From Salinicola socius (GTDB lineage: Bacteria > Pseudomonadota > Gammaproteobacteria > Pseudomonadales > Halomonadaceae): a stretch of DNA of 64,000 nucleotides. Both the position numbers and the translations under genes were made by a program. Of the stretch, positions 31,096 through 37,804 are shown one piece after another. The DNA lies in contig NZ_MSDO01000009.1 in assembly GCF_001937195.1 (NCBI RefSeq), positions 124,001-188,000 on the forward strand. The letters are read 5' to 3'. The notes under the pieces are model-generated. The model saw only the letters and a program-made list of their open reading frames with translations, did no database searches and was not told where the DNA came from. How positions within the stretch are numbered: the stretch's first letter is position 1; each line of letters opens with the position of its first letter.

Positions 31096-31148
31096 GAAGT
31101 CTCTCCCATCCGCCGTCGTGGCTATCCTTCAGATGATGGCCAACAACG

Positions 31149-31200
31149 AAAAAGGCGCCTGATGACACGAAGCGGGGGCTTCGCGGCATCAGGCGCCTTT
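31149..31200 (-). terminator. Leader attenuator before the nir operon
   Basis: AAAGGCGCCTGATG pairs with CATCAGGCGCCTTT (14 bp), with an inner CGAAGC/GCTTCG stem and a T run on the minus strand. It lies 54 bases upstream of the first gene of the operon, so it must be read through for expression. Confidence 0.88.
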
Positions 31201-31274
31201 GCCTGAAATTCGAACAGTGTCTGTCTCGCTGTCATGCGACGGGTGCCAATAGCGTTGCAGGCATCGTTTCGCAT

Positions 31275-31301
31275 CGACGCGACCGCCGTTGGTCGTCGTC
31301 A
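31275..31301 (-). promoter_or_regulatory. Leader hairpin with hexaloop AACGGC (candidate NasR/ANTAR site), nir operon
   Basis: Minus-strand TGACG-(A)-CGACC, loop AACGGC, GGTCGCGTCG. The stem is 10 bp with one bulged A. The loop has A at position 1 and G at position 4, as ANTAR proteins require. The predicted sigma54 start point falls at its 5' edge. Confidence 0.7.
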
Positions 31302-31311
31302 GATTAGAGGA

Positions 31312-31327
31312 AGCGAAAAGCGTGCCA
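31312..31327 (-). promoter_or_regulatory. Sigma54 promoter of the nir operon
   Basis: Minus strand TGGCACG-N4-TCGCT. GG and GC are separated by exactly ten bases, as sigma54 requires. One base differs from the consensus TTGCW. Confidence 0.75.
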
Positions 31328-31404
31328 ACGCTTCCTCGATACTGTCATTTCAGCGTGATGAGGTCTCTCTTCTGTTTTTTCGAGAGACGTCTGACTCTCG
31401 TCTT

Positions 31405-31421
31405 TGCGCAACATCGGTGCG
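31405..31421. promoter_or_regulatory. NtrC-like binding site 1
   Basis: TGCGCAACATCGGTGCG against consensus TGCAC-N6-GGTGCA: 9 of 11 fixed positions agree. About 85 bp from the leftward sigma54 box. Confidence 0.5.
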
Positions 31422-31435
31422 CAATCGACGGCTAC

Positions 31436-31452
31436 TGCACCAATGCGTGCCA
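31436..31452. promoter_or_regulatory. NtrC-like binding site 2
   Basis: On the minus strand it ends in a perfect TTGGTGCA half-site; the other half is weak. Its centre is 31 bp from site 1, three helical turns, and about 95 bp from the rightward sigma54 box. Confidence 0.45.
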
Positions 31453-31539
31453 TACCTTCCATCGAAGCGCCGGGGCGAGGCCGACAACGTCCTGGTCCGA
31501 ATGCGGCAAGACACTACTCTGCGGCTACCATGACGAGAT

Positions 31540-31555
31540 TGGCCCCATTCTTGCT
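31540..31555 (+). promoter_or_regulatory. Sigma54 promoter of nasA-cobA
   Basis: TGGCCCC-N4-TTGCT, with GG and GC separated by ten bases. The predicted start is near 31566, giving a leader of about 184 nt. Confidence 0.7.
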
Positions 31556-31608
31556 TGTTCTGGAACATGAAACGAAGTTGATCAGAGATGTCTCGTCTCG
31601 ATCGACCT

Positions 31609-31634
31609 GATCGATGCCAACGGCGGCATCGATC
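31609..31634 (+). promoter_or_regulatory. Leader hairpin with hexaloop AACGGC, nasA operon
   Basis: GATCGATGCC, loop AACGGC, GGCATCGATC: a perfect 10-bp stem. A second stem-loop (31580-31603, GATC-A-GAGA with TCTCGATC) precedes it by 5 bases, giving a two-hairpin arrangement as in known NasR leaders. Confidence 0.78.
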
Positions 31635-31695
31635 TAGCCGGAACGACATCGATAACGCGCCGGCGAGTCATCTGATTCGCCGCCAGCAGGCAACG

Positions 31696-31733
31696 AGGCC
31701 TGACGTCACCTTGGGTGATGTCAGGCCTTTTTG
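31696..31733 (+). terminator. Leader attenuator before nasA
   Basis: AGGCCTGACGTCACC pairs with GGTGATGTCAGGCCT (15 bp, one G-T) around a 3-base loop, then five T. It ends 17 bp before the nasA start. Confidence 0.9.
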
Positions 31734-35485: not shown

Positions 35486-35550
35486 ACGGCGCTAGGCAGG
35501 CCGGCTGACGGCGCGTAGACTCCGCGCCTTTCCCTTCCTCAGGAATGACC

Positions 35551-35892
35551 ATGAGTCAGTTGCCTCCCTGCCCGCAGTGCGGTTCCGAATTCACCTACGA
35601 AGACGCCGGCGTTCTCGTCTGCCCCGAATGTGCCCACGAGTGGACCCTGTCCGAGGCCACGAGTGGTGATATCGACGACCGGCGCGTTACCGATGCGCAT
35701 GGCACGCCGCTCGTGGATGGCGACAGCATCACCGTGATCAAGGATCTGAAGGTCAAGGGGTCTTCCCTGGTGGTGAAAGTCGGCACCAAGGTCAAGAACA
35801 TTCGCCTGGTGGATGGCGACCACGACATCGACTGCAAGATCGACGGCATCGGACCGATGAAACTGAAATCGGAGTTCGTCAAGAAAGCCTGA
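35551..35892 (+). CDS. yjdM: YjdM/PhnA-type zinc-ribbon protein
   Basis: The protein has 113 residues. An N-terminal zinc ribbon (CPQCGSEFTYEDAGVLVCPECAHEW) is followed by the PhnA domain (DSITVIKDLKVKGSSLVVKVGTKVKNIRLVDGDHDIDCKIDGIG). Despite the old name alkylphosphonate utilisation protein, its role is not established. ATG 35551 is chosen over 35545 because the AGGA site then has proper spacing. It stands alone, convergent with narK. Confidence 0.9.
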   Translation: MSQLPPCPQCGSEFTYEDAGVLVCPECAHEWTLSEATSGDIDDRRVTDAHGTPLVDGDSITVIKDLKVKGSSLVVKVGTKVKNIRLVDGDHDIDCKIDGIGPMKLKSEFVKKA

Positions 35893-35939
35893 AACCGGTC
35901 CAGCGCGTCTTTGGGGTATCCGCCAACGTAGAGAACATC

Positions 35940-35965
35940 AAAAAGCCGCCGCCCGAAGGCGGCGG
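35940..35965 (-). terminator. Intrinsic terminator of narK
   Basis: CCGCCGCC/GGCGGCGG 8-bp stem with a 4-base loop and T5 on the minus strand, about 80 bp after the narK stop. Confidence 0.85.
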
Positions 35966-36045
35966 TAAAGATCCCATGGACGTGCGAGGGAGAAGGTCGT
36001 GATGACAGGGCGTGATGACAGGGCGTCATCGAAAAGGAAACGCGC

Positions 36046-37398
36046 TCAACCGGTAGCGGCCTCCTGCTCGACGCGGCGCGCGCCATCCGCTTGACGGTAA
36101 GCGGCGGTCTCGGCGGCTTCGGTCTCCGAGGAGAATTTGACCGTCAGAGCAAATAGCGAGGCGGCGATGACTGTCAGGCCCAGATAGAATAGGCCCTGTT
36201 GATAAGACAACGATTCCGAGCGAAACAGGAAACCGGCGGCCACGGCACCGGCATTGCCTCCGGCACCGACGATCCCCGCGACGGCGCCCATCGCGTTCTT
36301 GTTGATGAAAGGCACAACCCCGAAAGTGGCACCCTCTGCCATCTGTACGAACAGGCTGAACACCAGCATGATGCTGATCGCCACGGCCAGGGTCTGCATC
36401 TGGGCGAAGCCGGTCAGCGCGATGCCCTCGCACAACAGTGCGATGAACAGCCAGCGTACGCGGCCCTTGAGTCCACCGTTGCGCGCGAACAGGTCCGAGA
36501 ACCATCCGCCTAGGGTGCGGGCGAACAGATTCATCAAGCCGAACAACCCCGCGATGAGTCCCGCCGTGGCCAGATCCAGCGAGAAGGTATCGAAGAAGTA
36601 GATCGCGGCGATATTGTTGATGGTGAGCTCGACACCGAAGCAGGCGGCATACACCGCGAACAGCGCCCAGACGCGAATGTCCCTGGCGGCGGCAGTGAAA
36701 CTTTGCAGAGCACCATGTTCCTGTGTAGCCGGAGGGAGTTCACCGCGGGCACGCAGGTCGCTGAAGTTGCCGTCGGGGGCGTCCTGGGTGAAGTGGTAGT
36801 AGGCGAGACCGGTCAGGAACAGCACGATTCCGGGCACGATCATCGCCAGTCGCCAGCCCAGGGTTTCGCTGACGCCCAGCATCAGCACGCCGGAAAACAC
36901 CAGCGGCATCAGGATCTGGGTGGTACCGCCGCCGAGATTGCCCCAGCCGGCGGTCGTGGCGTTGGCGGTCCCGACCACGTTGGGCGCGAACATGACGGTC
37001 GAATGGTATTGGGTGATGACGAAAGAGGCGCCGATCGCGCCGATTGCCAGTCGAGCCAGCAGAAAAGTTTCGAAGCTATCGGCCAGACCGATCAGCATGA
37101 CCGGCAGCGACCCCAGACAGAGCAGCCAGGTATAGGTCTTGCGTGGCCCGAGACGATCGCAGAGCAGTCCGATCACCAGCCGAACGACGACGGTGATCGC
37201 CACGGAAGCGATGATAGTATTGCCGATCTGCGTCTTGGAAAGATCCAGATCATCGCGCACCACGGCCATCAGTGGAGCGATGCCGAACCAGCCGAAGAAA
37301 CAGACGTGAAAGGCGAACCAGGACAGGTGGAAGGCGCGCATCTGCGGTGTGGAGAAACTGAACAGGCGTATCTTGTTGGCCTTGTGACGAATGTTCAT
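36046..37398 (-). CDS. narK: Nitrate/nitrite transporter NarK (MFS, NNP family)
   Basis: The protein has 450 residues and twelve membrane helices. NNP signatures are both present: GTANATTAGWGNLGGG in TM5 and GIVGAGGNAGAVAAGF in TM11, the glycine-rich nitrate motifs. A pore arginine lies in the RLAIGAIGASF/FVITQYH region. It brings nitrate into the cytoplasm for NasA. A 406-bp region upstream contains a sigma54 box, NtrC-like sites, an AACGGC hairpin and an attenuator, so it is controlled like the nas and nir operons. nasR lies upstream in the same direction. Confidence 0.93.
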   Translation of the reverse strand: MNIRHKANKIRLFSFSTPQMRAFHLSWFAFHVCFFGWFGIAPLMAVVRDDLDLSKTQIGNTIIASVAITVVVRLVIGLLCDRLGPRKTYTWLLCLGSLPVMLIGLADSFETFLLARLAIGAIGASFVITQYHSTVMFAPNVVGTANATTAGWGNLGGGTTQILMPLVFSGVLMLGVSETLGWRLAMIVPGIVLFLTGLAYYHFTQDAPDGNFSDLRARGELPPATQEHGALQSFTAAARDIRVWALFAVYAACFGVELTINNIAAIYFFDTFSLDLATAGLIAGLFGLMNLFARTLGGWFSDLFARNGGLKGRVRWLFIALLCEGIALTGFAQMQTLAVAISIMLVFSLFVQMAEGATFGVVPFINKNAMGAVAGIVGAGGNAGAVAAGFLFRSESLSYQQGLFYLGLTVIAASLFALTVKFSSETEAAETAAYRQADGARRVEQEAATG

Positions 37399-37455
37399 GA
37401 CGGAAAGTCGCTCCGGTTCGAGGCGATGACGTCTCGGGTCATCGGTTCATGGCAT

Positions 37456-37512
37456 AAAAAAACGGCGCCCATCGCTCGCCATGGAAACCATGTCGAGCCG
37501 ATGGACGCCGTT
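37456..37512 (-). terminator. Leader attenuator before narK
   Basis: Minus strand: ACGGCGTCCATCGGCTCG arm pairing with CGAGCGATGGGCGCCGT (a few mismatches), then a run of at least six T. It lies 58 bases before the narK start. Confidence 0.85.
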
Positions 37513-37602
37513 GTCCGTTCGTAGAGCGATGAATTCCCCGAGCCAAGTCTTGCTCGAAGTCCATCCTCTCCTGTGATTGTCGATTGTCTTTTCGACGATC
37601 GG

Positions 37603-37624
37603 ATCGGGCCGCCGTTGACCCGAT
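37603..37624 (-). promoter_or_regulatory. Leader hairpin with hexaloop AACGGC, narK
   Basis: ATCGGGTC, loop AACGGC, GGCCCGAT; 8-bp stem with one G-T pair. The predicted transcription start lies within a few bases of its 5' side. Confidence 0.72.
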
Positions 37625-37636
37625 GTCTGGAGATCA

Positions 37637-37652
37637 AGCAGGGAGGGTGCCA
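37637..37652 (-). promoter_or_regulatory. Sigma54 promoter of narK
   Basis: Minus strand TGGCACC-N4-CTGCT with GG/GC spacing of ten bases; two differences from consensus. Confidence 0.7.
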
Positions 37653-37739
37653 GGAATGGGGGTTTTCCTGAGAATCAACAGGATAGTGGCGAACTTCAGA
37701 GGCAGGTACGCCGCAATCTCGAGTGCCCGGCGGCGCTGG

Positions 37740-37786
37740 TGCGGAGTCTTGGTGCAGGGTTTGCGAAGTTGCACCGGGAGGGCGCG
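37740..37786. promoter_or_regulatory. Paired NtrC-like sites upstream of narK
   Basis: 37740-37756 ends in a perfect TTGGTGCA half-site. 37770-37786 begins with a perfect TGCACC half-site. Centres are 30 bp apart and about 100 bp from the sigma54 box. Confidence 0.45.
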
Positions 37787-37804
37787 ACGCCGCACCAGAG
37801 CGGC

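Follow-up and report, generated by a model that had tools for sequence, protein, structure and literature searches.

The leaders of the nir operon, nasA and narK in a nitrate assimilation locus of Salinicola socius share one layout and, judged from their sequence, are very likely three antitermination switches read by the regulator NasR, which would probably act by tethered capture across a linker that varies freely. They lie within a window of 64 kb, the whole stretch of DNA analyzed here (contig NZ_MSDO01000009.1, positions 124,001 to 188,000), which carries the assimilatory nitrate pathway as narK, nasA-cobA and the nir operon, with nasR upstream of narK. Each leader runs in the same order, from a sigma54 box to a first hexaloop hairpin (P1), a linker, a second hexaloop hairpin (P2) that overlaps a strong intrinsic terminator, and the first gene. 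An earlier note on this DNA had proposed a sigma54-dependent start followed by NasR antitermination at all three operons, and this is still the best reading, given a sole ANTAR protein in the genome, consensus loops, mutual exclusion of P2 and terminator, and the presence of rpoN and ntrC. The anatomy in that note was right about the hairpin and the terminator and incomplete in overlooking P2; it is the position of this second hexaloop inside each terminator that makes the mechanism recognizable.

All elements of the narK leader are on the minus strand. Its sigma54 box TGGCACCCTCCCTGC (37638..37652) is followed, 14 nucleotides (nt) past the last base, by P1 (37603..37624), an 8-bp hairpin with loop AACGGC that was found by folding and by a scan of the window. 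A middle hairpin identified from sequence and alignment (CGAGC, an 8-nt loop and GCTCG; 37539..37556) comes next, and P2, GGAC[AACGGC]GTCC (37503..37516), overlaps the 5' arm of the terminator (37457..37512, folding at -39.2 kcal/mol). The nir leader, also on the minus strand, has its box TGGCACGCTTTTCGC at 31313..31327 and P1 18 nt past the last base of the box (31275..31304, from folding and the window scan), with the apex CGACC[AACGGC]GGTCG at 31280-31295. Its middle hairpin (31243..31265) is degenerate in sequence, with loop AACGCT and a broken closing pair, and P2, TCAGGC[AAAGGC]GCCTGA (31189..31206), overlaps the 5' arm of a terminator at 31149..31200 (-40.6 kcal/mol by folding). On the plus strand, nasA has the box TGGCCCCATTCTTGC (31540..31554), P1 beginning 55 nt past its last base (31609..31634; 10 bp, loop AACGGC, again from folding and the window scan), P2 as CAGGC[AACGAG]GCCTG (31687..31702), which overlaps the terminator 5' arm, and a terminator at 31695..31731 that folds at -29.2 kcal/mol. 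The 3' arm of every P2 is the 5' arm of its terminator, so the two structures are mutually exclusive in 3/3 leaders. With z-scores of -7.6 (nir), -7.0 (nasA) and -7.4 (narK), the terminators are as strong as the earlier note had held.

In all three leaders both P1 and P2 have a 6-nt loop with A at position 1 and G at position 4 (A1/G4), closed by a C-G pair. This is the dual-hexaloop form of the published ANTAR target, in which two A1/G4 hexaloops are present and the second is exclusive with a terminator (PMC3369931, PMC7496416, PMC8934654). The combination of P1, P2 and terminator occurs at exactly three places on both strands of the window, namely these leaders, and in 100 dinucleotide shuffles of the window it occurs 0.05 times on average and at most once. 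The word common to the leaders, CAACGGCGG at 31283-31291 (minus strand), 31618-31626 (plus strand) and 37609-37617 (minus strand), makes up the AACGGC hexaloop and its closing pairs in each, and the flanking stems differ in sequence yet pair, both as first described. The word did not hold up as a signal in itself: there are five occurrences in the window against 1.34 expected (1/100 shuffles has five), and across the genome CAAYGRCGG has 346 matches against 372 for the reversed control. An Rfam scan of the window returned no family at gathering score.

The regulator is encoded beside narK. The nasR gene (37805..39229, minus strand) specifies a protein with NIT and ANTAR domains (Pfam, 1.1e-46 and 3.6e-20) that aligns to Klebsiella oxytoca NasR 4AKK at 1.8e-51 and has its nearest named relatives in Salinicola species. 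A genome-wide search found it to be the single ANTAR match in the 4.17-Mb genome, and a NIT-ANTAR protein is thus encoded in linkage with its putative targets. The ANTAR residues that contact RNA, with numbers taken from the literature and placed by hand on the alignment with 4AKK, are kept at R340 and K347, while K345 is replaced by R and W362 by another aromatic residue, Y; a K345R NasR behaves as wild type (PMC7496416). Homology to most relatives starts near residue 40-46, so that an internal ATG near 39112 is a better candidate for the start than the TTG at 39229, which is probably incorrect.

Both rpoN and ntrC are encoded in the genome, and a GG-N10-GC element stands upstream of nir, nasA and narK, in agreement with the sigma54 box first assigned to each operon. 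An inverted repeat, TGGTGCA...TGCACC, was observed between nir and nasA (31416-31442) and upstream of the narK sigma54 box (37751-37776), and it is kept across the aligned leaders of the genus. Its half-sites resemble those of NtrC but stand in the opposite orientation relative to the usual NtrC consensus.

The terminators could instead attenuate constitutively, or insulate divergent operons from each other in both directions, with P1 serving as a hairpin that stabilizes the 5' end and is unrelated to NasR. The nir operon and nasA are divergent, and hairpins at the 5' end can protect mRNAs. We consider this explanation very improbable, however, since narK is not divergent from nasR, P2 lies within all three terminators, and the loop letters and C-G closure match the consensus obtained for NasR by systematic evolution of ligands by exponential enrichment, an A1/G4 loop closed by a C-G pair (PMC7496416). 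The nir P2 word, moreover, is absent from six congeners that lack NasR, though these also lack the pathway.

The part of this arrangement that is new is the long and freely varying distance between P1 and P2, dual-hexaloop ANTAR antitermination itself being already known. In the window the linkers are 73 (nir), 52 (nasA) and 86 nt (narK) long, and the loops of the three leaders are 73-104 nt apart. The NasR/nasF system of Klebsiella (L119, a leader before an nrtA-like gene) is alike in its NIT-ANTAR protein, the adjacent nasR, a P1 of CC[AATGGC]GG and a P2 with loop [AAAGGC] overlapping the terminator, but it has one leader in the stretch compared and loops 25 nt apart; in the NasR leaders of Klebsiella, Erwinia and Pantoea together, this distance is 25-28 nt. 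The literature searches yielded no description of wide P1-P2 spacing in such leaders, within their result lists and passages from a minority of the papers, subscription papers being largely outside.

To follow the spacing across the genus, 34 loci were examined (11 narK, 11 nasA and 12 nir), and 29 were used (9, 8 and 12, respectively). The narK leaders of G182 (truncated) and G184 (masked stretch) were dropped, the narK of G189 being outside the sample, as were the nasA leaders of G178, G184 and G187, in which P1 was judged not clean. Linkers over the 29 leaders span 23-206 nt in nir, 49-86 nt in narK and 46-72 nt in nasA, with 27 of them longer than 25 nt, and they are poorly alignable between species. 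The nir linker of G178 (L087), at 71 nt, is 48 nt longer than the 23-nt linkers of G187 and G189, an excess that corresponds to a 16-nt unit present in about three copies. Measured from the -12 element, the start of P1 lies 14-16 nt downstream in all nine narK leaders and 14-18 nt downstream in 10/12 nir leaders (10 and 25 nt in the others); in four nasA leaders this distance is 25-56 nt. The position of P2 in the terminator is constant across the genus leaders while linker length varies. Four nasA leaders (G183, G184, G185 and G186) fail the T-run rule for terminators, and a stem with CTCTTTGCGTTT directly behind it is visible in three of these. With P1 tied to the promoter, P2 to the terminator, and a linker free to range from 23 to 206 nt, NasR probably works by tethered capture and not by a grip at fixed distance.

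Such spacing departs from that of the Enterococcus faecalis eut leaders read by EutV, which are similar in their A1/G4 hexaloops, in the exclusion of P2 and terminator, and in the presence of several leaders per locus (PMC3369931, PMC8934654), and which differ in having a REC-ANTAR regulator, an ethanolamine signal and linkers of 5-12 nt with strict spacing. Linkers of 3 or 14 nt drastically lower EutV induction in vivo (PMC3369931), and adding 20 nt to the linker abolishes EutV antitermination in vitro (PMC8934654); the definition given in PMC3369931 calls the P1-P2 linker 'variable', and a survey of actinobacterial ANTAR RNAs filtered for linkers of 2-25 nt (PMC8164766). It was not possible, in the crystal structure of EutV with RNA, to fit both loops of the same RNA onto a single dimer; under the model proposed in that work, the dimer transfers from a recruitment hairpin to an antitermination hairpin, and proximity accounts for the strict spacing (PMC8934654). 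The Salinicola leaders fit this two-step model without its spacing, which points to tethered capture, possibly with a relay loop or a second dimer.

Under the proposed mechanism, sigma54 RNA polymerase would start the transcript just upstream of P1 in nir and narK, or about 40 nt upstream of it in nasA, and nitrate-bound NasR would dock on P1 as it leaves the polymerase, near the transcript 5' end. NasR would then remain bound to the growing transcript through synthesis of the linker and would hold P2 as it emerges, so that the terminator cannot form and the polymerase reads through. Without nitrate, P2 would yield to the terminator and transcription would end before the first gene. In its general form, that NasR-type ANTAR antitermination needs no fixed spacing and passes from P1 to P2 across 20-200 nt, sometimes through a third, relay hexaloop, the proposal has in our judgment an even chance of being correct.

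Two other explanations keep the same regulon. In one, the linker folds into dedicated helices, the effective distance is short, and NasR grips both hairpins at a spacing like that of EutV. Boltzmann sampling was applied to the 25 of 29 leaders in which a TGG[C/T] sigma54 box stands at the appropriate distance, and it shrinks raw linkers of 23-206 nt to an exterior path of about 6-26 nt. Dinucleotide-shuffled linkers shrink as much or more, however (mean z +0.78, with 20/25 values positive), and a dedicated linker fold is therefore unsupported; the poor alignability of linkers between species likewise gives no sign of a conserved one. We regard a short effective distance as rather unlikely.

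The other explanation gives the leaders three hexaloops, of which the working pair is the middle one with P2 in narK, or P1 with the middle one in nir, while the third is a relay or loading site and the leaders of the window are eroded. An extra C-G-closed A1/G4 hexaloop was found in the linkers of 14/29 leaders (6/9 narK, 1/8 nasA and 7/12 nir). It is present in 8 of 17 representative linkers against 0.83 expected, a number reached in 0/1000 shuffles, although the representatives are related and the shuffles for this reason overstate their independence; nine control loop classes in the same linkers gave 0-2. The position of the extra loop is also fixed: in six of nine narK leaders it precedes P2 by 26 nt, a distance near that seen in Klebsiella, and in seven of twelve nir leaders it follows P1 by 32-35 nt. 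Against this, no intact third A1/G4 hexaloop is present in the three linkers of the window (the narK loop has 8 nt, and the closing pair is lost in nir) or in the two 23-nt nir linkers, and nasA has one in a single leader of eight. That a middle loop belongs to the working pair is possible though doubtful.

Several observations weigh against tethered capture by NasR at three switches. Linkers of 52-86 nt should fail if NasR obeys the EutV spacing rule (PMC3369931, PMC8934654), and the genus linkers were, as described, no more compact than shuffles. By itself, P2 shows no folding advantage over shuffles in nasA (z -0.89) or narK (z -0.55), the nir piece that was folded being truncated; P1 by itself does beat shuffles in nir (-2.65) and nasA (-3.93), though barely in narK (-1.18). 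Three of 11 genus nasA leaders (G178, G184 and G187) are without a clean P1: in G184 an AATGAA loop, closed by C-G, sits on a stem with a single mismatch, and in G187 the closing pair of an AACGAG loop is broken. Conservation of P1 must also be read with care. In the P1 stems of 20 distinct sequences from the genus, 87.1% of cells are paired, and the covariation score is 0.607 compared with 0.219 in shuffles (none of 500 as high) and a maximum of 0.189 in slid versions, but the rows were picked by a script that required an A1/G4 loop with C-G closure and a stem of three or more with no more than one mismatch, which fixes loop letters and closure by construction and favors pairing. The telling part of the comparison is that differing stem sequences occur at the same place, and to this extent the claim that pairing is kept while sequence changes was borne out. 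For nir the automatic choice hit the middle hairpin in G173 and G188; that of G173 was replaced by the promoter-proximal hairpin, and the promoter-proximal P1 of G188 is identical to a row already in the set.

The earlier note had suggested a search for further members with a covariance model. The model was built from 11 compact leaders, none of them from this genome (two genus nir leaders, four from other Halomonadaceae, three from Enterobacterales and two from one further genus). Run against the S. socius genome, it scored 47.4 bits for the nir leader and 37.6 bits for the narK leader, the latter spanning the long linker. Of the other three among its five rows, one was the nir terminator read on its reverse strand, and two were weak matches (E 0.08 and 0.78), at which no hexaloop with terminator was found. 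The nasA leader scored a mere 11.9 bits with the model in the window and is absent from the genome list, and 150 of 1899 first-look candidates were scored; members that diverge as far as nasA could therefore have been missed, a further point on the unfavorable side. A pattern of P2 with a T-run gave 11 rows at seven distinct places in the genome (two for the control), which are the three leaders and four others. The four others have no P1 within 180 nt, and their terminators are weak (-14.6 and -14.0) or missing. With pattern and model together, at 150/1899 model candidates scored, no further convincing member was found in the genome, and 'three members' is meant in this sense and not as proof that no other exists.

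Co-occurrence with NasR counts in favor of the switches, within limits. NasR was found in 12 of 18 genus genomes and assimilatory NasA in 11, all of them NasR-bearing; G182 has NasR and a NirB-like match, without NasA. The nir P2 word CAGGCAAAGGCGCCTGA is present in 12/12 NasR-bearing and 0/6 NasR-lacking genus genomes, and its reversed form in 0/275 genomes of the family, but the six that lack NasR also have no NasA or nir-operon match of comparable strength, so the word cannot separate NasR from the pathway. Furthermore, 15 genomes that belong to the family but not to the genus also contain the word; several of these match NasR at the level of the ANTAR domain only and are presumably NasT-type. 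Among 16 matches to the word outside the genus, L130 and L138 have no P1, and four loci have a P1 of only 4 bp, 176 nt away in L133 and L134 and 138-142 nt away in L125 and L129.

Two side observations concern these genomes. In G182 (L022), downstream of nasR, only the first four bases of the narK sigma54 box remain before unrelated sequence takes over; nasA is likewise missing from this genome, which retains nasR and the nir leader. In L126 (plus strand, 2029-2117) and L127 (minus strand, 839-928), from Halomonadaceae genomes that match NasR at ANTAR-domain level only, the model has a second match on the other strand from the nir leader; it carries the same P2, CAGGC[AAAGGC]GCCTG, and is preceded by an AATGAC hexaloop at a distance of 135 and 152 nt, respectively.

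Wide spacing is not confined to Salinicola. Within about 1.5 kb of nasR in other Halomonadaceae, 12 of 19 loci have a leader, with loops 39-40 nt apart in 11 and 80 nt apart in one, and no leader of this kind was found at the remaining seven. Of nine nasR loci at class level, two of which are Halomonadaceae, five have a leader and four do not. No clear leader was seen beside nasR in Azospirillum (L121), Pseudoalteromonas (L122), a Zoogloeaceae bin (L013) or Halomonas ramblicola (L016). Six NasR-linked leaders in other lineages have loops 33, 33, 41, 59, 62 and 67 nt apart. They comprise that of Ideonella dechloratans (L124, 67 nt), between nasR and a formate/nitrite transporter gene, and those of other families of the class (L185, L186, L187, L188 and L191, 33-62 nt); they resemble the S. 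socius case in having NasR beside a leader with P1 and P2 and differ in lineage and in having one leader seen per locus, locus length being limited. The Halomonadaceae nir leaders L126, L127, L136, L137 and L152, from genomes with a NasR match at the ANTAR domain only and presumably of NasT type, also have loops 52-82 nt apart. NasS-NasT systems such as that of Paracoccus nasA (PMC5424462) share a nitrate-responsive antitermination RNA and differ in that the sensor and the RNA-binding protein are two proteins, without a NIT domain.

The genes behind the three leaders are those of nitrate assimilation. The narK gene (36046..37398, minus strand) encodes a nitrate/nitrite transporter of the major facilitator superfamily (TIGR00886, above cut-off). 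The nir operon, on the minus strand, opens with a flavin- and nicotinamide adenine dinucleotide (FAD/NAD) oxidoreductase that resembles the N-terminal part of NirB (29776..31095; TIGR02374 over residues 28-414, below cut-off), followed by nirB (27143..29779; NF011565 and TIGR02374 above cut-off), a nirD-like Rieske protein (26586..27311; PF13806 at residues 161-232), the start of which as given is probably too far upstream, and a channel of the formate/nitrite family (25690..26571; PF01226). On the plus strand, nasA (31750..34599) encodes the catalytic subunit of an assimilatory nitrate reductase, assigned from Pfam domains with NasC and NasA models matching below their cut-offs, and it is followed by a cobA/cysG-type uroporphyrinogen-III methyltransferase gene for siroheme (34586..35485; TIGR01469 above cut-off). 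At the start of nasA, a 27-bp unit is repeated 3.8 times with 97% match (31811-31913) and encodes a repeated KDTT(T/P)CPPF directly ahead of the iron-sulfur cysteines. The nasA genes of G176 and G173 are 54 bp shorter across the span of the repeat in the alignment, a difference that would fit a variable number of repeats.

Views of how a single ANTAR dimer engages two hairpins have yet to settle, and the EutV model relies on their close spacing (PMC8934654). If correct, spacing-free action of NasR would contradict the rule derived from EutV and would call for a tethered-capture or multi-dimer mechanism. Searches for ANTAR RNAs with a linker limit of 25 nt would miss leaders such as these. A genus that keeps both hairpins at distances of 23-206 nt is a natural experiment on the use of two hairpins. 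For Salinicola itself, the layout shows how a single nitrate sensor could gate the uptake step together with the reduction of nitrate and of nitrite.

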